Shown piece by piece: positions 1-33,475 of a stretch of DNA of 44,757 nucleotides (positions within the stretch are counted from its first letter, which is position 1; the number at the start of each line of letters is the position of its first letter). Both the position numbers and the translations under genes were made by a program. The notes under the pieces were generated by a model that saw only the letters and a list, made by a program, of their open reading frames with translations, was not told where the DNA came from and searched no databases. The stretch covers positions 1 through 44,757 of the forward strand of contig WRFX01000004.1 in NCBI GenBank assembly GCA_009787445.1, given 5' to 3'. Source of the stretch: Chitinivibrionia bacterium. Lineage in GTDB: Bacteria; Fibrobacterota; Chitinivibrionia; Chitinivibrionales; Chitinivibrionaceae.

Positions 1-135
1 GTATTCTATCCAATCTATTTGCGCGTTTCCTTCAAATTTCAGCAGAGAATTAAGCAAACTGATACATAAATCCTTATGTTCTCCAAATACTTTCTTAAAC
101 AACAAATCGTTTTTCGGGTCAAGATATTTCGGCAT
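1..135 (-). CDS. Rpn family nuclease/putative transposase, N-terminal 45 residues only
   Basis: The gene runs off the left edge of the window. The visible N-terminus begins MPKYLDPKNDLLFKKVFGEH, which is the typical opening of the Rpn (recombination-promoting nuclease) / PD-(D/E)XK transposase-like family. Known members are RecA-independent recombination nucleases present in many copies in gut bacteria. A GGAGG ribosome binding site lies just ahead of the ATG at 135. The catalytic residues lie outside the window, so activity cannot be judged. It is divergent from the gene at 235. Confidence 0.75.
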   Translation of the reverse strand, partial: MPKYLDPKNDLLFKKVFGEHKDLCISLLNSLLKFEGNAQIDWIEY

Positions 136-174
136 TTTTCCTCCTTATTTATTCGTAAATATAATATTTATTTT

Positions 175-191
175 GTGCAAATAGTATATTT
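175..191 (+). promoter_or_regulatory. Promoter-like element GCAAATAGTATATTT
   Basis: This AT-rich element is preceded by TTTG and matches a pattern that recurs upstream of several genes in this window (for example 36806-36827 and 36758-36775). It lies about 43 bases before the ATG at 235. I infer that it is the core promoter of that gene. Confidence 0.35.
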
Positions 192-234
192 ATTTACGCG
201 CAATGAAAAAAACTAATATTTTGGGGGTAAAATT

Positions 235-834
235 ATGGAAATATGGGAAAAAGAATTAGCCGAAATTAGGGGCATAATGTCGGAAACCGCGAGGAAAATG
301 GCGGAAACTATGAAAGGTTTTGCTGAAATTAGAGAAATGCAAAAAGAAAACGCGAAAGAATTTGAGAAGTTGGGAAAATTTATAAAAGAAGTCAGTAAAA
401 ACGTCGACGGAATAAACAACAGCAACGGAAAAGTTGCTGAAGATTATTTTTTCAATTCTCTCTGCGCGACAAAAACTTTGGGCGGCGTGCATTTCGATAT
501 GGTAAAAAGGCATTTGAGTAATTCGATTCCGCTTGAAGACGGAAAAACTCTCGACGGAGAATATGATATTGCGCTAATAAACAAGGATTCACTCGGAATT
601 GTGGAGGTAAAATATACCGTTCATAAAAAAGACGTAGAAAATTTGGTAAAAAGACAAGTTAAGAATTTTAAGACGCTTTTTCCTATGTATTCAAAATATA
701 AATTTTATTTGGGAATTTGCGGTTTAAGTTTCAACAAACAAGCGGAAGACGCGGCAAATAAATTTGGCGTAGGAATGTTAAAATTAAACGGCGACGCGGT
801 AGAAATTCGCGATAAAAACTTAAAAATCTATTGA
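235..834 (+). CDS. Coiled-coil plus PD-(D/E)XK nuclease-like protein, function unknown
   Basis: The 199-residue protein begins with a charged helical stretch (about residues 1-60) likely to form a coiled coil. A compact alpha/beta domain follows. In it D111, E124 and K126 (pattern D...ExK in GEYDIALIN...GIVEVKYT) fit a PD-(D/E)XK nuclease fold, with E69 as a possible extra acidic residue. Similar coiled-coil plus PDDEXK proteins are common, uncharacterised and often multicopy. The start is supported by TTGGGGG seven bases ahead. It sits between an Rpn-type gene and a serine recombinase, so the flank is probably accessory DNA. DNA cleavage is inferred from the fold pattern only. Confidence 0.6.
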   Translation: MEIWEKELAEIRGIMSETARKMAETMKGFAEIREMQKENAKEFEKLGKFIKEVSKNVDGINNSNGKVAEDYFFNSLCATKTLGGVHFDMVKRHLSNSIPLEDGKTLDGEYDIALINKDSLGIVEVKYTVHKKDVENLVKRQVKNFKTLFPMYSKYKFYLGICGLSFNKQAEDAANKFGVGMLKLNGDAVEIRDKNLKIY

Positions 835-856
835 CAAAACAAAGACAATATTTTAT

Positions 857-1453
857 CTACAAATTATTTTCCACTATAAAATTTTTCAGCGTTTTTCTGT
901 GAACTTTCAATTTTCTGGCAATTTCGCGCGAAGAAAGTTTTTCATCCATCATTTTTGTTATTATGCTTTCTTTTCCCGATAATTTTTTGTTTTTTGATTT
1001 GCTTCCAAAAGGTCTTCCGAGTTTTACTCCGCTTGCTTTTAAGCGCGAAAGCGACTCTTTTGTCCTTTGCGAAATGAGATTTCTTTCGACTTCGCTTACG
1101 ACGGCGAAAATAGGGGCGATATATCTGCTAATTTGGTTTTGTTTGGGGTTAAAACTTTCTTTTATCGCTATAATGTCTATGTCGCGTTTTTCGCATCTTT
1201 CCAAAATTAGTATGAGCGAATACATCGTTCTTGAAAGCCGCGATAATTCGGAACATATTAACGAATCGCCTTTTCTGATAATTTTTAGTAATCTGCCTAA
1301 TTTTCGTTTTTCAAACGCCTCTTTTCCAGAAATTGTTTCGTTTATCCATTTGTCGATTTCTAATCCGTTTTTTGCGCAATAATTATTTATTTCAAAGCGC
1401 TGATTTTCTACGGTTTGCTTATCGGTGCTTACTCGTATATATCCATAAATCAT
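857..1453 (-). CDS. Serine recombinase/DNA invertase, Mpi/resolvase family
   Basis: The 198-residue protein opens with YGYIRVSTDKQ, the catalytic motif of small serine recombinases, with Ser9 as the likely nucleophile. The conserved SRLSR segment follows near the middle. A C-terminal helix-turn-helix lies near residues 170-192 (SSREIARKLKVHRKTL). Length and architecture match DNA invertases and resolvases such as Bacteroides Mpi, which flip promoter segments by inverting DNA between short repeats. An 8-base inverted repeat lies immediately upstream (1466-1540), between this gene and the divergent large secreted protein. Whether it acts there or elsewhere cannot be told from one orientation. 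No transposase or phage gene accompanies it. Confidence 0.9.
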   Translation of the reverse strand: MIYGYIRVSTDKQTVENQRFEINNYCAKNGLEIDKWINETISGKEAFEKRKLGRLLKIIRKGDSLICSELSRLSRTMYSLILILERCEKRDIDIIAIKESFNPKQNQISRYIAPIFAVVSEVERNLISQRTKESLSRLKASGVKLGRPFGSKSKNKKLSGKESIITKMMDEKLSSREIARKLKVHRKTLKNFIVENNL

Positions 1454-1465
1454 AATAAAAACTCC

Positions 1466-1540
1466 TTACGTTTTTTTTTTGTTAAAAAGTGGTATATATT
1501 AAAGGGTAGTATAATTTTCCACCAAACGTTATAAACGTAA
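1466..1540. repeat. Inverted repeat TTACGTTT...AAACGTAA, candidate recombinase site or operator
   Basis: TTACGTTT at 1466-1473 and its exact complement AAACGTAA at 1533-1540 bracket the promoter region between the invertase and the secreted-protein gene. The right arm also contains a tighter dyad, ACGTT-ATA-AACGT, at 1526-1538. A run of ten T (1471-1480) abuts the left arm. The arms are short, so chance is possible in AT-rich DNA. Confidence 0.4.
1510..1515 (+). promoter_or_regulatory. Candidate -10 box (TATAAT) for the large secreted protein
   Basis: A perfect TATAAT lies 49 bases ahead of the ATG at 1565 and inside the inverted repeat at 1466-1540. There is no good TTGACA at the expected spacing, so this is a weak promoter call. 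If the segment inverted, this box would point toward the invertase. Confidence 0.35.
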
Positions 1541-1564
1541 ATTAAAAGAAAGGATTTAGTTATT

Positions 1565-4500
1565 ATGAAAAAATTAAAAATCGCACTTTTTATCGCTTTT
1601 TGCGCAATATTCGCTTTTGGCGCAAATGTGGACATCAAAGATATGCGAATCGCAGTTATTTGGACTTCTTCTACGTATGTAAACGAAGAATATACGCCGA
1701 GTAACTGGAACGACAACGACTTTGAAGATTGGCAAATAGGACTTGCGCAACTTAAAATTGTGCTTTCGGCAATTCACGACGAAATACAATCAAACGGCTC
1801 GCTCGATACCGACGGCTTTGACATAAACTTTTCGCACACGGGAAGTACGGGCTTTAACAATAATCCAAATCTCCTTAAAAACGTGCGCGTTTATAAAATA
1901 GAAGATAAGGTTTCGTATGAAAAGATTGTCAATGATTTTGGCGGCGAACACCCAAACGTTATTTGTTATATTAACGCGGGAGTAAGCGCAAACGCAAACA
2001 CAGGCATATATCAGTTGTTTCAAGACGCGGCGGAACATAACGTAGGAATTTTACTCGTAGGTTCGGAATCTGCGTTTGAAGCGACAAAAATTGACCCGAC
2101 AAGAAGAATTTTCCCCGTTATGGGCGTACAAACGCAATTTCGTATGATGCTTCACGACGACGATGTTATAAACGATTTTCAGTTTTTAACGGATAACGAC
2201 CACCCCGATATGAAAATACCAGACACCGTTTATCTTACGGGCGACGGCGATGAGCAAGGGGAAATTCGCAGTAAAACCAGAAACGGAAAACTCCTTTGGA
2301 AAAGGAATTGGCAGAGCGGCATTCAGCACGAAAATTTCGGGACAAACGATATTTTGTACAAATACGGCGAATGGTCTATAAAAGCGTCTGCGGTAGAAGT
2401 CGTTAAATTGGATTATTATCCCGCCGAAATGAATTACGGAATGCATATGGAATATAACATTTATATCGCCAAAAAAGAGGGAACTAGCGGAAACGATAAC
2501 GGCGGCGAAGTTTATATACTCAACGATAAGTCGATGTCGGATTTGTATGTTAACGGCAAGTTATTTAAGAAAAAAGGCGCCCGTATAGACACTCACGATA
2601 CGTGGCCCGGACTTAAGAATGGCGAATTGGAAAAGGACTGGATTCTTTGGGTTGAAAACGAAGAAAATAACAACCAACAAGACGAAATTTTAATTTTACC
2701 AAAAGGATACAAACCATACGAATTACCCGCTTATGCCTTTGTAGGAGAAGAAAAAGACAATAGCGACCTTTGGAGTATATTTGGCGAGGGGAATACTAAG
2801 TATGACGATATGTGGAATAATTGCAATGCATCCAATGAAAATCGCGGAGGCAACAGCGCGATAGTCGCAGGCGGTTTGCGCGATTTGAGAATAGAACTTG
2901 ACACTACCAAAAGCATTTACAAAAAAATATTTGCGGGTACAGGTACAAAGACGCACAGTCATCTTTCGCAAAAATCGGGAAACGAAAAAATTGAACTTAA
3001 ATTCAGACCTTGGAGCAAATACGGAAGATTAAACGCCGACGCGGATTTATGGGCGTTTAACAACCAGTTAAAATTGGCTTCTTACGACGAAATAAGCGCA
3101 AACACAAATTTTGACACGACTAAATATTATAGCGACCATTTGGCGCAGCAAAAAGCGGGAAGAGCGGGACAAGGTTACCAGCAATATGTTATTCCGCCGA
3201 GTAACAGCAACGAATTCAGCAATATGAAACACGCCGACGAATTGCCTGCGGTTACGCAAGGTAACGGAGACCTGCAAAGATATTACAACGATTTTAAGGA
3301 CAAAAAATTCTACACAATTTCGGCTGTACAAAAGGGAACGCGGCGTTTGGCGATTATTGGTTATCAGCCGACTTATTTGCAAGATACCGAAGCGAGCAAG
3401 TATATTCTTCACGACGTTATAACTTTTATAGGTTTTGACAATTACACGCTTCCGCAGCCAAAAGTTACCATTGACGAAAAAGTTGTTGAAAACGGCAAAA
3501 CGGATACGTTAAAAAACAAAACTATCGACGAAGCGGAAGTTAAAATTACGGTCGATACCAAAACTATGGACGACGATATGAAAAAATGCACGCACAAAGT
3601 CCATTGGGAAATTTGGTACAGAAACGATGTTACATATACCCAACAACCCGACGGCGTTTTATTGGATAGCGCTTCTGTCGATTTGGATATGAATAATCTG
3701 CAAGGCGAAATATTTACTCTTTCTCTTGATAATTACAATAAGGAAAAATTAGAAATTAACGCAAGCGAAGAGTGGCTTACCGTTAAAACTTGGACAAAGC
3801 CCGAATGCGCGCCTTTTATGGAAAGCAGACATACGGAATCTAAAATTTATCGCAGCAGGCAGTTTAATCAATTACCCGCCGGATTATACGACCAGAACGC
3901 CGACGGATTTGCCGATTTTATTAGCGTTGCTTTCGATACGCTATACAGCGACGATTTGCCGACAAAACTAAAAGTAACAAGTCCTTTTAGCAGCGCAAAA
4001 ACCTTTGAAATTACGCTTGACGGCAACGAAAACGTATCAAAAGACGACCAAAAACATACGTACAGTATTACTTTAACCAAAGAACAAAGCGATATTATAG
4101 GATTTGGCACGGAATTTAACACAGGAAACTTTTTAACTTGGTCGGGGAATGACGGCGGTTTTGGAACAAAAGCAGGACAAATGGAAGATAAAATGGCTCC
4201 CGTTATTATTTCCGCTCGTCTTGAAAGACAATGCGAACAGCCCTACAACATTTTGAAAGTAGAATACAGCGAGGCGCTTCTTTCCGCCGCTCCAAAAACC
4301 GGCGCGCTTTTTAGTTTGTGGAAAGAAAATTCTACCGCTCCGACGAATATAACCGTTACCAATGGCAATAATACTTCCGGAAATATTTGGAGTTATAACG
4401 TCGCCAAAAGCGGCGGCGGAAACGTAGACCCAAAAATCGGCGAATACGGCATTAACATAAACAGTACTTTGACTCCCACTAAAATACAAGACGCCAAAGG

Positions 4501-4993
4501 CAACGAGGTAACGGTAGCAAACAACAAAAAAGTGGAAAGTAAAGATTTTGTTATTGCAGGCGATTGCTTTAAACAAATTATAACGCCTGTTCCCGGCGGG
4601 AAACTTCCAAACGACAAAGGCGATACGATTACAATTATTAAAGACCCCAAAGACCCTGTTGTTAAGGAAATTATTACGAGCGGCGGCGGAACTATAATCG
4701 TAGTTGACCCGGGAAAAAACGCCGATATTGGCAATGACACTACTTATATTACCGGCGCGGCTATTTTTGACAAAGTGGGCAATTTAGTCGCGAAAAAGGG
4801 CGAAGGCGACAATAAACTTGTCGTAAGTGTGGAAGAACTTATAGACGGAAGAAAAGTCGCGGTTATCGGCTGGAATAACAAAAACGCCGCGGGAAGAGAC
4901 GTCGGTTCGGGAACTTATTTGCTTATAGTCGAATCCAAAGCGGGAACCGAAAAGAAACCGATTAGGGTCGACCATCCGAAAAGTAAAAAGTAA
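1565..4993 (+). CDS. Very large secreted/surface protein with C-terminal FlgD-like domain
   Basis: The 1142-residue protein has a clear signal peptide (MKKLKIALFIAFCAIFAFG, cleavage near ANVD). The N-terminal part (about 20-620) begins with a Rossmann-like strand (MRIAVIWT) and ends with RLAIIGYQPTYLQDTE, loosely reminiscent of ThuA/glutamine-amidotransferase-like folds; that comparison is weak. Repetitive beta domains follow. Near residues 877-900 a MAPVIISA...LKVEYSEAL segment resembles the Ig-like repeat in the protein at 28986-32000. The last 80 or so residues (AIFDKVGNLV...GRDVGSGTYLLIVE...KPIRV) resemble FlgD Ig-like/secretion-linked C-terminal domains and match the end of that same protein. 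A ribosome binding site (GAAAGGA) precedes the ATG. I do not recognise its function. Confidence 0.8.
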   Translation: MKKLKIALFIAFCAIFAFGANVDIKDMRIAVIWTSSTYVNEEYTPSNWNDNDFEDWQIGLAQLKIVLSAIHDEIQSNGSLDTDGFDINFSHTGSTGFNNNPNLLKNVRVYKIEDKVSYEKIVNDFGGEHPNVICYINAGVSANANTGIYQLFQDAAEHNVGILLVGSESAFEATKIDPTRRIFPVMGVQTQFRMMLHDDDVINDFQFLTDNDHPDMKIPDTVYLTGDGDEQGEIRSKTRNGKLLWKRNWQSGIQHENFGTNDILYKYGEWSIKASAVEVVKLDYYPAEMNYGMHMEYNIYIAKKEGTSGNDNGGEVYILNDKSMSDLYVNGKLFKKKGARIDTHDTWPGLKNGELEKDWILWVENEENNNQQDEILILPKGYKPYELPAYAFVGEEKDNSDLWSIFGEGNTKYDDMWNNCNASNENRGGNSAIVAGGLRDLRIELDTTKSIYKKIFAGTGTKTHSHLSQKSGNEKIELKFRPWSKYGRLNADADLWAFNNQLKLASYDEISANTNFDTTKYYSDHLAQQKAGRAGQGYQQYVIPPSNSNEFSNMKHADELPAVTQGNGDLQRYYNDFKDKKFYTISAVQKGTRRLAIIGYQPTYLQDTEASKYILHDVITFIGFDNYTLPQPKVTIDEKVVENGKTDTLKNKTIDEAEVKITVDTKTMDDDMKKCTHKVHWEIWYRNDVTYTQQPDGVLLDSASVDLDMNNLQGEIFTLSLDNYNKEKLEINASEEWLTVKTWTKPECAPFMESRHTESKIYRSRQFNQLPAGLYDQNADGFADFISVAFDTLYSDDLPTKLKVTSPFSSAKTFEITLDGNENVSKDDQKHTYSITLTKEQSDIIGFGTEFNTGNFLTWSGNDGGFGTKAGQMEDKMAPVIISARLERQCEQPYNILKVEYSEALLSAAPKTGALFSLWKENSTAPTNITVTNGNNTSGNIWSYNVAKSGGGNVDPKIGEYGININSTLTPTKIQDAKGNEVTVANNKKVESKDFVIAGDCFKQIITPVPGGKLPNDKGDTITIIKDPKDPVVKEIITSGGGTIIVVDPGKNADIGNDTTYITGAAIFDKVGNLVAKKGEGDNKLVVSVEELIDGRKVAVIGWNNKNAAGRDVGSGTYLLIVESKAGTEKKPIRVDHPKSKK

Positions 4994-5015
4994 AAAACAA
5001 AGCAAACAAAAAACG

Positions 5016-5047
5016 AGAGCGGATTTTTTAAGTCCGCTCTTTTTTTT
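5016..5047. terminator. Bidirectional intrinsic terminator
   Basis: AGAGCGGA (5016-5023) pairs with TCCGCTCT (5033-5040) around a nine-base loop. A T run follows on the plus strand, and an A-rich stretch precedes it, giving a T run for the other strand. It sits between the convergent genes ending at 4993 and 5057. Confidence 0.9.
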
Positions 5048-5056
5048 ATCTTTTTT

Positions 5057-6403
5057 TTATCTCTGTTTCACCACATTGCAGGTTTTTACGCAGTTAAAGC
5101 AATATTCGCAGGTTTTTCTGTCTATTTTTATAACAATTTCTCCGTTTTCGGCTTTTTGCGAAGAAATACTATTTGTCGGACAAACGGACAAACATTCCCG
5201 TTTTTGACATTTGGAACAGATATTATTTTCGCCGCGAAGCAGAGATTTTGCCAAAGATAAATAGAGATATTTTTGCGCTTTGCCAAATTCCTTAAAAAGC
5301 GTACAAACAGTTATAAGTTCATATAAAACTTTGCACAAAAAATTTCTATATAATTCTAATTTTTGCTCTTGCGGCAATCCCGAAGTCGCCAAAAAATTGT
5401 GCGCGTCTAAAATACTATCCGTATATTCGGTTTCCATATCCCAAAATTCTTTTTCGGCGGAAATTGGCATATAAGCGGCGCGCAAATATTCTTTCGGCGT
5501 TAAAACTTTCGGCGAAATTTGCGCTTGATGTTCCAAAGGAAAACGGATTTCGCCCGTTACAAGCGTGGTTCCTACCGCGTATTCAAAAGCCGTATGAGCC
5601 GCGTCCGAAACGCCCGCGCCGATATTTGTAACCAAATTGCAGTCGGGAATAATAAAAAGTCCGTTGTTTATAAGCGATGAAAACTTAAATTTAAGGTCCC
5701 AGCAATTATTTTCTCCCGCTAAAATCAACTCGACCTGATTTACCAAAATTCGTATTCTCGTATTTTTGAGATACTTATCGTAATCCAAAGTGTTTTCGTC
5801 AATTTTACACTGCTTTTTATATTCCTGCAATTTCAACATTTTTTTGTCGTGTTTTTTCCACGCTCTTCGCCACGAAGCCCAGCCCCAAAATCCGTTTACG
5901 TCTTCGGGAAAATCGTAAACGCGCTTAAAAGAATAGGTGTTTGCCGTCGTTTTTTGCGCGCCTTCGTTAATGCCGTTTATAAGAAAAACTTTCTCTTCGT
6001 CTTTGTATTTTATAAGCAAATCCGAGCAAAATCTAAAAAAACTCGGCGCGGGCAAAGTGTCGTCTTCGAGAATTATTCCCATTTCTTCGTTTTCAAAAAA
6101 CCAATCTATCGCCGATTCCATCGCTCGTCCGCTGCCGTGATTTTTTTCGTTAAATTTTTTATGAACTTCGCAATCCCAATCGATATTTTCCAAAACGTAT
6201 TTTCGCAAATTTTCTACGTTTTCTTTTTCGCCAATTTTTCTTTCTCGCCAGCAATCCGATGAAATATACAATTTTTTCGGCTTGGATTTTTTAATCGCGT
6301 TGAAAACCTTTACGCTCGTTTCGGTTTTGGTAAAAATGCAAAACAATACGGGCATTCTTTCGTAATTTTCGTTGTCTAAAAAGTTGTTTTTAATAAGTCG
6401 CAT
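5057..6403 (-). CDS. HlpA-like glycosyltransferase fused to 2[4Fe-4S] ferredoxin domain (copy A)
   Basis: The 448-residue protein has two parts. Residues 15-200 match the nucleotide-diphospho-sugar transferase family often labelled hemolytic protein HlpA-like: KVFNAIKKSKPKKLY, SAIDWFFENEE, the GT-A acidic motif ILEDD (111-115), PSFFRFC, and WGWASWRRAWK. The C-terminus holds eight cysteines in bacterial ferredoxin order: CxxCxxxxCxxxCP (C396, C399, C404, C408), then CxxCxxCxxxC (C432, C435, C438, C442). A helical linker (FKEFGKAQKYLYLSLA) joins them. The family normally transfers sugars to surface glycans; the Fe-S tail is unexpected and its role is unknown. GGAGA lies ahead of the ATG. The paralogue at 6444-7790 lies 40 bases upstream on the same strand, probably as an operon. 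Confidence 0.8.
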   Translation of the reverse strand: MRLIKNNFLDNENYERMPVLFCIFTKTETSVKVFNAIKKSKPKKLYISSDCWRERKIGEKENVENLRKYVLENIDWDCEVHKKFNEKNHGSGRAMESAIDWFFENEEMGIILEDDTLPAPSFFRFCSDLLIKYKDEEKVFLINGINEGAQKTTANTYSFKRVYDFPEDVNGFWGWASWRRAWKKHDKKMLKLQEYKKQCKIDENTLDYDKYLKNTRIRILVNQVELILAGENNCWDLKFKFSSLINNGLFIIPDCNLVTNIGAGVSDAAHTAFEYAVGTTLVTGEIRFPLEHQAQISPKVLTPKEYLRAAYMPISAEKEFWDMETEYTDSILDAHNFLATSGLPQEQKLELYRNFLCKVLYELITVCTLFKEFGKAQKYLYLSLAKSLLRGENNICSKCQKRECLSVCPTNSISSQKAENGEIVIKIDRKTCEYCFNCVKTCNVVKQR

Positions 6404-6443
6404 ATTTTCTCCTTACTTGTTAATTTTTTTTACAATTTGCGTT

Positions 6444-7790
6444 TTACGTCGGATTTACGACGGGACACGCTCGCATACATTTGCGACAGGATTCGCAAGT
6501 ATTTTCGTTAATTTTTACAATAAATTCTTTGTCGCTATTTTGAGACGGAAAAATACAATTTGACGGGCAGGCGGACAAACATTTTCGGTCGCGGCATTTC
6601 AAACAAATGTTTTTTTCGCCTTTTAGCACGGATTCCGTTAAAGATAAATAAAAATATTTTTGCGCTTTTGCATATTCCTTAAAAAGCAAAGAATTATTTA
6701 TCAATTCAAATAAATTGTCGCCTAAAAATTGCCGATACAATTCAAGTTTTTGTTCGTTAGGAAGAAAAGACCGCGCCAAAAAGTTGTGAACGGTTAATAT
6801 TCTATCCGTAACGCAAGTTTCTATTTCCCAAAATTCTTTTGCGGCAAAATTCGGTACAAAAGCGGCGCGTATATAATCTTTCGGCGTTAAAGTTTGCGGT
6901 AAAATTTGCGGCGGATGCGAAAGCGGAAACACAATTTCGCCCGCCGTAAGATTTACGCCGACGCTGTACTTAAACACCTTGTGCGCGGACTGCGAAATAC
7001 TGCATCCGATATTCGTAACCAAATTGCAGTCGGGAACGATAAAAAGCCCGTCGGCTATCATTGTCGAAAATATTAGTTGAATATCCCAAGTGTTATTTTC
7101 GCCCGATAAAATAAATTCCATTTGGTTTGTAATATTTTTCATTCTAATTCTTTTAAGATATTCTTCATAACTTAACGTATTTTCGTTAATCTCGTTTTGT
7201 TTTTTATATTCTTGCAAATTCGACATTTTTTTGTCGTGTTTTTTCCACGCTCGTCGCCACGAAGCCCAGCCCCAAATTCCTGTAACGTCTTCCGCAAAAT
7301 CGTAAACTCTTTTGAAAGAATACGAATTTGCCGACACATTTTTTGCAGTTTCGTTTGTTCCGTTTATAAGAAAAATTTTTTCTTCGTCTTTATATTTTAC
7401 AAGCATTTCCGCGCAAAATCTAAAAAAACTCGGCGTAGGCAAACAGTCGTCTTCAAGGATTATTCCCATTTCTTCGTTTTCAAAAAACCAATCTATCGCG
7501 GCTTCTATTCCGAATCTCGTTCCGAGATTTTTGTCTTCAAATTTCGTAAAAATTTCGCAATTCCAATCAATATTATCTAAGACATATTGTCTCAAATATT
7601 GTACCTTTTCGCGCTCGCCTTCCCTGTCTTCTCGCCAGCCGTCCGAAAAAACATACAATTTATTTGGTTTGGACTTTTTTATGGCGTTAAAAACTTTTAT
7701 CGCCGTTTCGGTTTTAGAAAAAGGTATGAATAAAATCGGTACTTTTTCATATTCGCTGTTGTCAAAAACGCTGTTTTTAATCAATCTCAT
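6444..7790 (-). CDS. HlpA-like glycosyltransferase-ferredoxin fusion (copy B)
   Basis: Sister of the genes at 5057-6403 and 7861-9204, with the same architecture: family signature near the N-terminus, ILEDD motif, WGWASWRRAWK, then CxxCxxxxCxxxCP and CxxCxxCxxxCP at the C-terminus. An in-frame ATG exists at 7814, but CAGGAGA sits eight bases before the ATG at 7790. Starting at 7790 also gives the MRLIKN N-terminus shared by all three copies, so 7790 is chosen (448 residues). It is divergent from copy C across a 70-base AT-rich gap that must hold both promoters. Its second cysteine cluster ends in CP, a closer ferredoxin match than copies A and C. Confidence 0.8.
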   Translation of the reverse strand: MRLIKNSVFDNSEYEKVPILFIPFSKTETAIKVFNAIKKSKPNKLYVFSDGWREDREGEREKVQYLRQYVLDNIDWNCEIFTKFEDKNLGTRFGIEAAIDWFFENEEMGIILEDDCLPTPSFFRFCAEMLVKYKDEEKIFLINGTNETAKNVSANSYSFKRVYDFAEDVTGIWGWASWRRAWKKHDKKMSNLQEYKKQNEINENTLSYEEYLKRIRMKNITNQMEFILSGENNTWDIQLIFSTMIADGLFIVPDCNLVTNIGCSISQSAHKVFKYSVGVNLTAGEIVFPLSHPPQILPQTLTPKDYIRAAFVPNFAAKEFWEIETCVTDRILTVHNFLARSFLPNEQKLELYRQFLGDNLFELINNSLLFKEYAKAQKYFYLSLTESVLKGEKNICLKCRDRKCLSACPSNCIFPSQNSDKEFIVKINENTCESCRKCMRACPVVNPT

Positions 7791-7829
7791 CGCCAAATCT
7801 CCTGATTTTTCCATAAATTACTATAAAAA

Positions 7830-7842
7830 TATATTATTTTTG
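7830..7842 (+). promoter_or_regulatory. Promoter-like TATATTATTTTTG
   Basis: This copy of the recurring TATTATTTTTG element lies 18 bases ahead of the ATG at 7861, in the gap between two divergent glycosyltransferase genes. It contains TATTTTTG, matching the TAnnTTTG form of Bacteroidota -7 boxes. No clear upstream TTTG box is present. Confidence 0.35.
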
Positions 7843-7860
7843 TCGTCTTGGAGGGAATTT

Positions 7861-9204
7861 ATGCGATTGATTAAAAATAATTTTTTAGATAACGACGAAT
7901 ACGAAAGAATGCCGATTCTTTTTACTCCTTTTTGCAGAGTTGAAACCGCGACAAAAGTTTTCGCCGCGATAAGAAAATCCAAGCCGAAAAAATTATACGT
8001 ATTTTCGGACGGTTGGCGCGAAGAAAAAGACGGCGAAAAGGAAAAAGTCCAATATTTGCGACAATACGTTACGGAAAACGTGGATTGGGATTGTCAAGTT
8101 TTTACTAAATTTGAAAGCAAAAATTTGGGAACGAGATTTGGAATAGAGAGCGCGATAGATTGGTTTTTTGAAAACGAAGAAATGGGAATAATCCTTGAAG
8201 ACGACTGTTTGCCCGCGCCGAGTTTTTTTAGATTTTGCGCGGAAATGTTGGTAAAATACAAAGACGAAGAAAAAATTTTTCTTATTAACGGAACAAACGA
8301 GAGTAGCAAAAAATCGTCGGCAAATTCGTATTCTTTTAGGCGAATTTACGATATTCCCGAAGACGTTACGCAATTATGGGGCTGGGGTTCTTGGCGACGA
8401 GCGTGGAAAAAACACGACAAAAAAATGTCGAAATTGCAAGAATACAAAAATAAATGCGAATATCAAAATACTTCGGATAACGACGAATATTTGAAAAATA
8501 AACGAATAAGCGTTCTCGTAAATCAAATGGAGCATATATTATCCGACGAAAACAAAACGTGGGACTTGCAGTTTAAGTTTTCAATTTTGACTCAAAACGG
8601 GCTGTTTATTATTCCCGATTGCAATTTGGTAACGAATATCGGCTGCGGCGCGTCGGTGGCGGCTCACGGCGCGTTTGAATATATAATCGGCGGAACTTTA
8701 ATTCCGGGCGAATTTTTGTTTCCCGCGTTGCATCCGTCGCAAATTTTACCACAAATTTTATCGACAAAAGAGTGTTTGCGCGCCGCGTATATGTCGATTT
8801 TTAAAGAAAAAGAATTTTGGGATATGGAAACAAGAATTTCAAACGAAATTTTGGACGTTCATAATTTTTTGGTAAAAAGTTCGCTTTCTTCTGAACAATT
8901 TTCTAAAATGTTTGAGCCGTTTATTTCGGAAAAATTGCATACTTTAATAAATATTTCCGCGCATTTTAAGGAATTTGGCAAAGCGCAAAAATATCTTTAT
9001 TTATCTTTGACGCGGTCTTTGCTTCGCGGAGAATATAATATCTGTTCTAAATGCGAAAAACGCGAATGTTTGTCGGTTTGTCCGTCAAATTGCATTTCTT
9101 TGTTTCAAACGCAGGAAAAAGAAATCGTCGTTAATATAGACAGAAAAATATGTCAATATTGCTTTAATTGCGTGAAAAGTTGTGGAGCAATAAAGCAAAA
9201 ATAG
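7861..9204 (+). CDS. HlpA-like glycosyltransferase-ferredoxin fusion (copy C)
   Basis: The third paralogue has 447 residues and lies in opposite orientation to copies A and B. The frame stays open far upstream on the antisense of copy B. The ATG at 7861 is chosen because GGAGGG precedes it by six bases and because it gives the shared MRLIKNNFLDN start. It has the same GT-A motif (ILEDD) and tryptophan-rich WGWGSWRRAWK. Its C-terminal cysteines are CxxCxxxxCxxxCP and CxxCxxCxxxC. The central 90-180 region is almost identical in all three proteins, while the 200-400 region differs more. I infer a role in surface glycan synthesis with an Fe-S module of unknown purpose. Confidence 0.8.
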   Translation: MRLIKNNFLDNDEYERMPILFTPFCRVETATKVFAAIRKSKPKKLYVFSDGWREEKDGEKEKVQYLRQYVTENVDWDCQVFTKFESKNLGTRFGIESAIDWFFENEEMGIILEDDCLPAPSFFRFCAEMLVKYKDEEKIFLINGTNESSKKSSANSYSFRRIYDIPEDVTQLWGWGSWRRAWKKHDKKMSKLQEYKNKCEYQNTSDNDEYLKNKRISVLVNQMEHILSDENKTWDLQFKFSILTQNGLFIIPDCNLVTNIGCGASVAAHGAFEYIIGGTLIPGEFLFPALHPSQILPQILSTKECLRAAYMSIFKEKEFWDMETRISNEILDVHNFLVKSSLSSEQFSKMFEPFISEKLHTLINISAHFKEFGKAQKYLYLSLTRSLLRGEYNICSKCEKRECLSVCPSNCISLFQTQEKEIVVNIDRKICQYCFNCVKSCGAIKQK

Positions 9205-27271: not shown

Positions 27272-28927
27272 ATGAATGCTTTTAAATTTTTGTTTTTATT
27301 TACGGCAATGTCCGCAATTTCTTTGTTTGCGGAATTTGGCAAAACCCCGTTTGGATGGGGCGATTTTCGTTTCGGTTTGGTAAGCAATGGCTTGCCGTAT
27401 AATCCCACCGTTCCGCTTTCTTTTGATACGCGTCGGCTAAAAGTCGCGACGGAGGAGTTGGGAATAAAAATTGCGTATCGTTATAGATATGTAAACGAAG
27501 GCGTTGACCCGCGAGAAAACGCTTGCGTTAATTTATTTCCTTGGGCTTGGGACAACAACTATTCCAAAAAAGCAAAAGAATTGGCGGGAGTCGAATCGGC
27601 TTATGTAATTTACGTTTTACAGGAAGAAGGCGGACGTACAAAACTACTCGCGAATATGAACGACCCCGAAAAATCGCGGCTGTTTTTCTGGACTTTGCAA
27701 AAAGTTGCCGAAAACGCAAACGGCTACGGCTCCACAATAATAGTAGAACCGGACACTTGGGGATATTTTTTGCAAGACGCAAACAACAGTAGCGTCGGTT
27801 GGAACGGATTGGAAGTCGACCCGACAAAAATTCCCGCAAAAGTAAATAATTTAGAAAGTTTTACTATAAACGATTCGTCGGTAATTCGTCCAAATCCAAA
27901 CGCTCCGTGGGAAACGGACACAATGGTAACGCAAAAAACCATTTCTTTTGAATATTTAAGCGACTTGCCAAACACTATGGCGGGTTTTGGAGTCGCGATA
28001 ATTAGAACTATGCACAAATTTGCGCCCGATTGCTACGTCGGCTTTCTCGCTTCGCATTGGTCTGTAAATCTTCCCGGCTGGTCAGAAAAAGGATTAGCGT
28101 GGTCGTCGCCCGAACTTATTGACGCTTCGGCACAAGCAAACGTTGAGTTTTTTTCAAAAATGTACGGATTTTCAGACCCCGCAATTACGCTTAAATCAGG
28201 CGACAGAGCCGATTTTATAGGAGTGGAAAAAAACGGATGGTGCGCGGGCGAATACGAAGTCAAAAAAAATAATACGGATTGGTATTGGGACGACGCGGGA
28301 ATGGAAAAATATCTTGCGTGGACAAAAAAAATCGCGCAAGGACTTGACCTTCCCGTTATCGGCTGGCAAATATCAATAGGAAATATGGATAATCCAAACG
28401 TCGCAAACGGGTCGCAGTTTGCAAACGCTTGGAAAGATACTTTTTTCCCGTATTTTTTCAACAACGTAAATAAATTTATAGACGCGGGATTTATTGGCTT
28501 TTTGGTAGGAAAAGGACTTGCCGAAGGAACGGATTACACGCTTCCAAGCGAAAACATTGGCGAAAAAGGATGGTTTTTTAACCAACTTATAGAATTTGAC
28601 AAAAATAGACCGTATTACACCAAAAGCGACGAAATTGAAGGCGGCGGTAGCGATACTAAAATATTATCTCCTAACACCGACGCGAAAATCGCGGGAAAAT
28701 CGGCAAATTCCGTCGTCGCAAGCGTTAGCGCAAAAGGTTTAAATATTAGTTTGCCAAGTTTGGGAAACGCAAATGTTTTTGTCTATAACGTTTCGGGAAA
28801 AATAGTTTATAAAACGACGATAAATAAAAGCGCGACAATTCCCGTAGACAATTTTAAGCGCGGCGTTTATTTTGTAAAAACGGAATTTTACGGCAAAAAT
28901 TTTGTCTCGAAAATATTGCTGAAATAA
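27272..28927 (+). CDS. Secreted protein with type IX-like C-terminal sorting domain, possibly a TIM-barrel glycan hydrolase
   Basis: The 551-residue protein has a signal peptide (MNAFKFLFLFTAMSAISLFA). A domain of about 440 residues follows, with features suggestive of a beta/alpha barrel (STIIVEPDTWGYF, DLPVIGWQISIGN). A linker leads to a C-terminal segment (VFVYNVSGKIVY...FKRGVYFVKTEF...FVSKILLK) that matches the type A sorting domain of type IX secretion cargo. The glycan-hydrolase idea rests on fold impression and acidic residues only. AAGGAG precedes the ATG. A terminator follows. It is transcribed with or soon after pilB, 75 bases away. Confidence 0.7.
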   Translation: MNAFKFLFLFTAMSAISLFAEFGKTPFGWGDFRFGLVSNGLPYNPTVPLSFDTRRLKVATEELGIKIAYRYRYVNEGVDPRENACVNLFPWAWDNNYSKKAKELAGVESAYVIYVLQEEGGRTKLLANMNDPEKSRLFFWTLQKVAENANGYGSTIIVEPDTWGYFLQDANNSSVGWNGLEVDPTKIPAKVNNLESFTINDSSVIRPNPNAPWETDTMVTQKTISFEYLSDLPNTMAGFGVAIIRTMHKFAPDCYVGFLASHWSVNLPGWSEKGLAWSSPELIDASAQANVEFFSKMYGFSDPAITLKSGDRADFIGVEKNGWCAGEYEVKKNNTDWYWDDAGMEKYLAWTKKIAQGLDLPVIGWQISIGNMDNPNVANGSQFANAWKDTFFPYFFNNVNKFIDAGFIGFLVGKGLAEGTDYTLPSENIGEKGWFFNQLIEFDKNRPYYTKSDEIEGGGSDTKILSPNTDAKIAGKSANSVVASVSAKGLNISLPSLGNANVFVYNVSGKIVYKTTINKSATIPVDNFKRGVYFVKTEFYGKNFVSKILLK

Positions 28928-32112: not shown

Positions 32113-32298
32113 TTATAGGACTATTCCTTTCGCGGCGCGTCGGGCGGTTATGTATTCTTCAAATTCCGCTCCTGATTTTTTTAAGTATTCGGAAATTTCG
32201 CCTCTTTTCATTGTGGCAAATTTCGCGTCTAATTCGTCTTTAATTGCCCGCACGCCTTTTATGCAGTCCCAGCGAAAGTCATCATCGTCAATCGTCAT
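32113..32298 (-). CDS. Small PIN-partner protein, putative antitoxin (copy 1)
   Basis: The 61-residue protein (DCIKGVRAIKDEL, TMKRGEISEYLKK, EEYITARRA) is helical and charged. It overlaps the end of the upstream PIN gene by 11 bases, so the two are translationally coupled. Small proteins with a D-C-[IV]-[KE]...K-I start are common beside PIN-domain proteins and are often labelled toxin-antitoxin partners. A GGGGG site precedes the ATG. The order toxin first, partner second is the reverse of most VapBC pairs. No DNA-binding domain is obvious. The antitoxin role is inferred. Confidence 0.6.
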   Translation of the reverse strand: MTIDDDDFRWDCIKGVRAIKDELDAKFATMKRGEISEYLKKSGAEFEEYITARRAAKGIVL

Positions 32299-32752
32299 CG
32301 TAAACCCCCATTTCTTTTGGCGAACGTATCTCTAAATGTTTATAACCGTTCTTTATGTTCACTGAATTATAGCCTTTGATTCTTTCTACGTTCACAATAT
32401 GTTTAAAATTCCAACTTACTAAATAATCAATGTTATTTATTGTCGCTGTTGCAATGTGAATGCAGTCGTCTCTGCTTGTTTTGCCGACAACTTTTTCTTT
32501 AAGATATTCGTCCGCTAAATCTTCATATTCGGGCAACACTTCTATTGACTGATATTTTATATCTTCCAAAAGATTTTTTACGTTTTCAGGCGCGGTTTCT
32601 AATTCTCTTTTTACCAAATCGGAAATAAAAACGATATACTTTCCCGCTTTAATTTTTTCAAAAAGCAAGCGGGTATCTTGTTTAAATATATCGTCGAAGA
32701 AACCGCCAAAAATCGACGTGTCTAAATACAAAGACGTTTTTTTATTTATCAT
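32288..32752 (-). CDS. PIN-domain protein, VapC-like putative RNase toxin (copy 1)
   Basis: The 154-residue protein has the PIN layout: LYLDTSIFGG with Asp11, a conserved Glu near 50 (KRELE), DDCIHIATA with acidic residues near 94, and WNFKHIV. These residues bind the metal of the PIN RNase active site, so the enzyme looks intact. It is followed by an overlapping small gene. TAAAAAGGAG precedes the ATG. A promoter copied with the duplication (32780-32809) lies about 28 bases upstream. Many PIN proteins are tRNA or rRNA endonucleases; the target here is unknown. Confidence 0.85.
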   Translation of the reverse strand: MINKKTSLYLDTSIFGGFFDDIFKQDTRLLFEKIKAGKYIVFISDLVKRELETAPENVKNLLEDIKYQSIEVLPEYEDLADEYLKEKVVGKTSRDDCIHIATATINNIDYLVSWNFKHIVNVERIKGYNSVNIKNGYKHLEIRSPKEMGVYDDD

Positions 32753-32779
32753 TTTACTCCTTTTTATATTCCTAAATAA

Positions 32780-32809
32780 AATATAATATATGCCAAATTG
32801 TTTTGTCGA
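32780..32809 (-). promoter_or_regulatory. Promoter TCGACA-N18-TATATT for PIN gene copy 1
   Basis: On the minus strand TCGACA (32809-32804) and TATATT (32785-32780) are 18 bases apart. It is the duplicate of the promoter at 32050-32077, with one base missing between the boxes (GGCAT versus GCGCAT). Confidence 0.5.
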
Positions 32810-32844
32810 AAAATTTAATTATATTAAGTGTTATAGCGTTTTTT

Positions 32845-33027
32845 TTATAGGACTATTCCTTCTTTTGCGCGTAAAGAAGTAATGTATTCTGTAAATCTTA
32901 TATGCGATTTTTTTAAATATTCGGAAAGTTCGCCTCTTTTCATTGTAGAGAATTTTTTATTTAGTTTATTTCTAATTTCCCGCGTCATTTCCACACAATC
33001 ACAACTAAACTCATCATTGCTCATCAT
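32845..33027 (-). CDS. Small PIN-partner protein, putative antitoxin (copy 2)
   Basis: The 60-residue protein is the sister of that at 32113-32298. It shares DC[IV], KF[AS]TMKRGE, SEYLKKS, EYIT and the GIVL C-terminus, but differs much more than the PIN genes do. Two adjacent ATGs (33027 and 33024) are possible starts. It overlaps the end of PIN copy 2 by 14 bases. The changed residues cluster in the N-terminal helix and around residues 41-44, where contact with the PIN partner might be made; that is inference. Confidence 0.6.
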   Translation of the reverse strand: MMSNDEFSCDCVEMTREIRNKLNKKFSTMKRGELSEYLKKSHIRFTEYITSLRAKEGIVL

Positions 33028-33475
33028 ATACTAACTCCTTCGGCGAATAAATTTCTAAACGTTTATAATTGTTCTTTAAGTTCACGATATTATATCCTTT
33101 GATTCTGTCGGCGCGAACAATATGCTTAAAATTCCAACTGACCAAATAATCAATATTGTTTATGGTTGCCGTTGCGATGTGTATGCAGTCCTCTCTGTTT
33201 GTTTTGCCGACAACGTTTTCTCTAATATATTCATCCGCTAAATCTTCATATTCGGGCAATACTTCTATTGACTGATATTTTATATCTTTCAAAAGATTTT
33301 TTACGTTTTCAGGCGCATTTTCCAACTCGTCTTCTACCAAATCGGAAATAAAAACAATATACTTTCCCGCTTTTATTTTATCAAAAAGCAAGCGGGTATC
33401 TTGTTTAAATATATCGTCGAAGAAACCGCCAAAAATCGACGTGTCCAAATACAAAGACGTTTTTTTATTTACCAT
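33014..33475 (-). CDS. PIN-domain protein, VapC-like putative RNase toxin (copy 2)
   Basis: The 153-residue protein is nearly the same as copy 1, with the same acidic motif set (LYLDTS, EDELE, EDCIHIATA). It lies 12 bases downstream of vapD, so it is probably transcribed with vapD and its partner rather than from its own promoter. The start is supported by AGGAGAAAAATG. The differences from copy 1 are scattered, some at the surface segments VKREL/VEDEL and YLKEK/YIREN. Confidence 0.85.
   Translation of the reverse strand: MVNKKTSLYLDTSIFGGFFDDIFKQDTRLLFDKIKAGKYIVFISDLVEDELENAPENVKNLLKDIKYQSIEVLPEYEDLADEYIRENVVGKTNREDCIHIATATINNIDYLVSWNFKHIVRADRIKGYNIVNLKNNYKRLEIYSPKELVYDEQ

Follow-up and report, generated by a model that had tools for sequence, protein, structure and literature searches.

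The stretch of DNA analysed here (the window; 44,757 nt) opens contig C4 of a Chitinivibrionia bacterium genome that measures 2.7 Mb and is 97% complete. Three neighbouring genes, named GT1, GT2 and GT3, code for proteins in which a glycosyltransferase domain is followed by a helical segment and a tail containing eight cysteines. Inspection of the open reading frames showed all three to be intact. GT1 shares 62% identity with GT2 and 66% with GT3. GT1 and GT2 are arranged head to tail, and the start codons of GT2 and GT3 lie 70 bp apart in divergent orientation. With corrected start codons, GT2 most likely begins at position 7790 and GT3 at position 7861; a 630-aa open reading frame at 7312-9204 was rejected as the GT3 gene, being merely a frame that stays open upstream. 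The features of the locus, followed by a related gene found elsewhere in the same genome, are:

5015-5041, unstranded: 12-pair stem plus T-run, lying between GT1 and the 1142-aa gene that converges on it
5057-6403, minus strand: GT1, 448 aa; GT-A domain, helical segment and 2[4Fe-4S]-type tail
5060-5224, minus strand: GT1 residues 394-448, eight-Cys dicluster domain (Fer4_7, E 2e-5)
5225-5512, minus strand: GT1 residues 298-393, helical segment (AF2 helices at 303-389)
5513-6403, minus strand: GT1 residues 1-297, GnT-I-like GT-A domain (Foldseek, profile alignment with GnT-I)
6444-7790, minus strand: GT2, 448 aa; architecture as in GT1, CP kept in the second motif
6447-6611, minus strand: GT2 residues 394-448, eight-Cys dicluster domain (Fer4_7, cysteine columns)
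7791-7860, unstranded: GT2-GT3 intergenic region, which probably holds both promoters
7861-9204, plus strand: GT3, 447 aa; architecture as in GT1, divergent from GT2
9037-9201, plus strand: GT3 residues 393-447, eight-Cys dicluster domain (Fer4_7, cysteine columns)
L005:498-3065 (G000:C191): gene for an 856-aa GT/Fe-S/FkbM protein, adjoining a ruvB-like gene

The neighbours of GT1-GT3 code for the 1142-aa protein (which had no family match), small lipoprotein-like products, a PilZ protein, a DUF4388 protein and V-ATPase subunits; no glycan gene cluster was seen around the three genes. Promoter matches in the GT2-GT3 intergenic region reached only 9 of the 12 consensus positions, the regional promoter count being not clearly above that of shuffled sequences. 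The stem at 5015-5041 is likely to be the terminator of the 1142-aa gene, which lies on the plus strand; the terminator count across the region equalled that of the shuffles, but this stem was the longest. Farther along the window, the product encoded at positions 27272-28927 contains a type A sorting domain of the T9SS (TIGR04183, E 8e-9), and two adjoining, very similar open reading frames (154 and 153 aa; 32288-33475) looked PIN-type toxin-like by eye.

Positions 1-7010 of the window recur, reversed and with zero mismatches, as bases 1-7010 of contig C13. This perfect 7-kb duplicate at another contig end could suggest an assembly or frame artefact, but it corresponds to an unmerged contig-end overlap, and the extra GT1 copy on C13 was therefore discarded as no further gene. 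Since independent copies of the same architecture occur at other places in the genome and also in a second species, an assembly artefact is excluded, and an artefact of either kind is extremely improbable.

The glycosyltransferase domain of GT1-GT3 (residues 15-300) matched no Pfam or NCBIfam profile. Its AF2 model was confident over most of its length (pLDDT mostly >90), and the top Foldseek match of this model was GnT-I (E 7.5e-9; TM 0.38 for the query and 0.48 for the target), with an identity of about 12-13%. A profile of 59 relatives of the domain matched POMGnT1 at E 1e-4 and gave a weaker match to GnT-I at E 0.03, and in the profile alignment its EDD metal motif (DxD-type; residues 113-115 of GT1) fell on the EDD of GnT-I. 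The GT-A fold over residues 15-300 is thus common to the GT13 enzymes GnT-I (1fo8, 1fo9, 1foa) and POMGnT1 (5ggf), whose solved structures, however, have no Fe-S tail; GT1-GT3, in addition, are bacterial. GT1-GT3 did not match PF03071, the curated GT13 profile, and the GNT-I Pfam matches obtained were weak and confined to tail-less relatives. Because the domain has no Pfam match, it is described as having a GnT-I-like fold and not as a GT13 member. GT1-GT3 are, accordingly, GnT-I-like GT-A enzymes of a widespread bacterial and archaeal family. A sequence-only reading of this DNA had called them HlpA-like GT-A proteins; the GT-A part stands, but for the HlpA label no matching Pfam or NCBIfam family was found, and a search of the open-access literature for an 'HlpA' glycosyltransferase found no paper containing both terms.

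Residues E113, D115, G174, W175 and G262 were invariant across the 59 relatives. Every tail-bearing copy retains the EDD, the WGW and other family residues, which suggests that the transferases of GT1-GT3 are probably active; GT1 is the only copy with SDC in place of SDG at residue 51. Tail-less relatives (for example C68 of the window's genome, located beside glycan genes) are roughly 30-46% identical over residues 16-300, but most of them stop at about residue 300-330 and have no Fe-S tail. Elsewhere, members of the family are fused to TylF or other methyltransferases, to hexapeptide-repeat parts, or to GT11 or GT4 domains. Distant relatives of the domain fused to GT11 (fucosyltransferase-type) were observed at L082:4218-5957 and in L027, and one is present in the window's genome.

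The combination of this domain with the tail was found in five genes of the window's genome (GT1-GT3, C72 and C191) and in three genes of a congener, G029. The C191 protein contains, in a single 856-aa chain, an N-terminal extension, the glycosyltransferase domain, the Fe-S tail and an FkbM methyltransferase. The tails of GT1-GT3 have the pattern CxxCxxxxCxxxCP followed by CxxCxxCxxxC, the cysteines of GT1 being C396, C399, C404 and C408, and C432, C435, C438 and C442. The proline that follows the final cysteine in the second motif was absent from four of the eight copies, GT1 and GT3 among them. With a gathering cut-off of 27 bits, the Fer4_7 profile (PF12838) matched GT2 (30.2 bits, E 6.4e-7) and G029d (30.3 bits) above this value; GT1 (25.4 bits, E 2e-5), GT3 (21.6 bits, E 3e-4), C72 (23.2 bits), G029a (23.5 bits) and G029c (23.4 bits) scored below it. 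These matches and the intact frames bear out the earlier claim that three GT-A proteins each end in an eight-cysteine pattern of the Fe-S type.

A profile made from the eight tails had its best matches (E 1e-6 to 1e-4) in NxrB, NarH, HycB, EbdB and other Fe-S subunits, and the NCBIfam profiles matching the tail likewise represented Fe-S subunits; a clostridial ferredoxin was matched at E 0.006. The spacing CxxCxxxxCxxxCP is that seen in the NxrB alignment. NarH, NxrB, HycB, EbdB and NrfC, all DMSO-reductase-type beta subunits, contain the pair of four-cysteine motifs with similar spacing, but each of the tails studied here forms only a single two-cluster unit and is attached to a glycosyltransferase, and no molybdoenzyme partner was seen beside the genes. 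The clostridial-type 2[4Fe-4S] ferredoxin (1clf) also packs two four-cysteine motifs into about 55 residues; its first motif differs, however, in that classical ferredoxins have a two-residue gap where the fused tail has four, and the tail is not free-standing. The earlier description of a bacterial ferredoxin tail is only partly supported: the molybdoenzyme Fe-S subunits NarH, NxrB and HycB stand closer to the tail than the clostridial ferredoxin does.

In the full-length AF2 model the tail appeared as a beta hairpin between two helices, plausibly placed but with a pLDDT of 48-67; modelled alone it gave a poor structure, whose best Foldseek matches were TPR-containing proteins at non-significant values (E at least 0.5). 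Given this low confidence, the evidence for the ferredoxin fold that had been proposed comes from the sequence profiles and not from the structure. Taken as an anatomy, a GT-A domain plus a helical segment plus a tail of the two-cluster type is very likely correct, and, judging from the motifs and profiles, the eight cysteines are likely to carry [4Fe-4S] clusters in vivo.

The helical segment of GT1-GT3 covers about 95 residues between the glycosyltransferase domain and the tail. Among the eight tail-bearing copies, residues 298-373 had a mean identity of 30%, with 2 invariant columns out of 76, so that the 'conserved helical linker' noted previously holds only for its last helix (residues 374-393, KAQKYxxLxL; KAQKYLYLSL in GT1), which is 64% conserved, on par with the glycosyltransferase domain. 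This helix resembles the TPR pattern by eye; no TPR profile matched the tail-bearing proteins.

The eight motif cysteines were invariant in all eight tail-bearing copies from the two species, although the mean pairwise identity of the tail was 51%. Within the 55-column Fe-S region, all 8 motif columns and only 5 of the 47 others were invariant (hypergeometric p ~1e-6, a value that ignores the relatedness of the copies), in agreement with the proposal that the cysteines have been maintained. In most paralogue pairs dN was well below dS, the ratio being indicative only since dS is near saturation; purifying selection was not clear for the Fe-S part of G029c and G029d (dN 0.32, dS 0.38). Free loss of cysteines had been put forward as grounds for doubt, and the copies largely pass this check: eight of the nine paralogues keep all eight, while the ninth, G029b, has lost the whole tail. 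G029b lies inside the clade, and its tail was lost through a clean deletion reaching to just short of where the following gene begins. As all copies but one, in both species, keep the tail, it is probably useful to its bearers.

Full matches to the tail profile occurred in only two species among the 168 genomes of the phylum, and the motif was present in none of 67 distinct tail-less relatives from the phylum and from a small set of loci of other phyla, a few of them cut by contig ends. A search of viral contigs gave no matches, a search of plasmids gave one weak, unannotated match, and no described glycosyltransferase-ferredoxin fusion was found in the open-access literature. The fusion, which had been flagged as unusual, was thus absent outside the genus among the relatives searched; the GT-A plus dicluster tail is a new domain architecture made from known parts. 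Among the other tail hits, G029:C38 and G051:C8 were rejected as further cases because they are the N-terminal ferredoxin part of Fe-hydrogenase-like sensors. The G051:C90 match, which resembles the G051:C8 type by sequence, and the G019 match, an FrhB-type protein, were likewise set aside; G147:C77 gave a weak match.

In a tree of the glycosyltransferase domain, the nine copies of the genus formed one clade (support 100/99), its sister group being the tail-less C68 and a gene from the same order. The tail-bearing copies fell into two subclades, each represented in both species, and the tree of the tails showed the same split. A single clade with subclades common to both species suggests one gain of the tail, so the fusion probably arose once, before the two species split. 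The G029 copies form a tandem array beside a ruvB-like gene. Since the C191 gene also adjoins such a gene, this is probably the old location. Two GH9 cellulase genes (L083:1369-4928) also adjoin the G029 array.

A repeat of ~80 bp, readable on both strands and apparently palindromic, was observed in frame in many G029 open reading frames (with a translation like AVGAGFARPKNQPSGELGGQTPPLQ), among them the tail-less paralogue. It is present in L083 (G029:C2:15234-15317) and at about 25 further places in G029; 49 matches were counted over both strands of G029, and none in the window's own genome. The repeat is reminiscent of Rickettsia's in-frame palindromic elements.

Glycosyl transfer requires no electrons. 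Since glycosyltransferases use no redox chemistry, a maintained two-cluster Fe-S tail on such an enzyme would point to redox control or to a coupled redox step. In the latter case the tail would work as an electron relay, feeding a flavin-dependent or radical-SAM sugar-modifying partner that acts on the same glycan. The closest relatives of the tail are indeed electron-transfer subunits (NarH, NxrB, HycB, EbdB), both four-cysteine motifs are complete, and in a related genome a Fer4 plus FrhB protein lies among glycan genes (L087:3830-5056). However, no flavin or radical-SAM partner adjoins any tail-bearing gene; the actual neighbours are V-ATPase, ruvB/ruvA, GH9 cellulase, lipoprotein and DHODB-type Fe-S protein genes, and they vary from copy to copy, which makes a relay rather unlikely. 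Equally improbable is that the clusters merely stabilize a small domain that oligomerizes or docks, aided by a TPR-like last helix pair. The strong conservation of the KAQKYxxLxL helix beside the tail, its fit by eye to the TPR pattern, the TPR-containing proteins among the Foldseek matches and the fusion of other family members to varied non-redox modules would agree with docking, but the Foldseek values carry no weight and TPR profiles went unmatched.

That the cysteines bind zinc, or that the tail is a passive leftover, is very unlikely. An enzyme of the LPS pathway with a tetracysteine motif has been found to bind zinc (PMC10607449), and one paralogue has lost its tail; against this, the spacing and the CP agree with 4Fe-4S dicluster profiles, and none of the eight cysteines has changed in any of the eight copies from a time before the two species parted.

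The reading that we favour, tentatively, is that the tail has a control or sensing role for the transferase, with the relay and structural docking ranked after it; either of these two would also fit the facts. A single event in the ancestor of the genus would have given a GnT-I-like transferase its C-terminal extension, made up of the helical segment and a 4Fe-4S domain with two clusters, and duplication of the fused gene would have followed. Glycosyl transfer proper would most likely not involve the clusters; the dicluster tail would probably serve in control or docking, so that how active the enzyme is, or where it is placed, depends on the redox, oxygen or Fe-S state of the cell. Local precedent for a sensing use comes from Fer4 domains on non-redox outputs in these or related genomes: a G029 protein combines Fer4 and Fe-hydrogenase-like domains with a SpoIIE phosphatase, and a G051 protein combines them with an MCP. 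The FkbM-bearing homologue also speaks for control, as it has a domain of the glycan-tailoring type and no redox partner. Against it, the model of the tail is weak, the second-motif proline is missing from four of the eight copies, no obvious regulator adjoins the tail-bearing genes, no conserved partner gene was found, and G029b works or survives without the tail. The more specific idea that two [4Fe-4S] clusters switch the transferase, so that glycans shift with the oxygen or redox state, is a doubtful one.

With five tail-bearing genes in one species and three in another, the role of the tail is accessible with purified proteins, and the tail-less paralogue of G029 offers a natural control. 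A maintained Fe-S tail on a glycosyltransferase would suggest that glycan synthesis in these bacteria is under redox control, or that it is coupled to a redox step that modifies the glycan.
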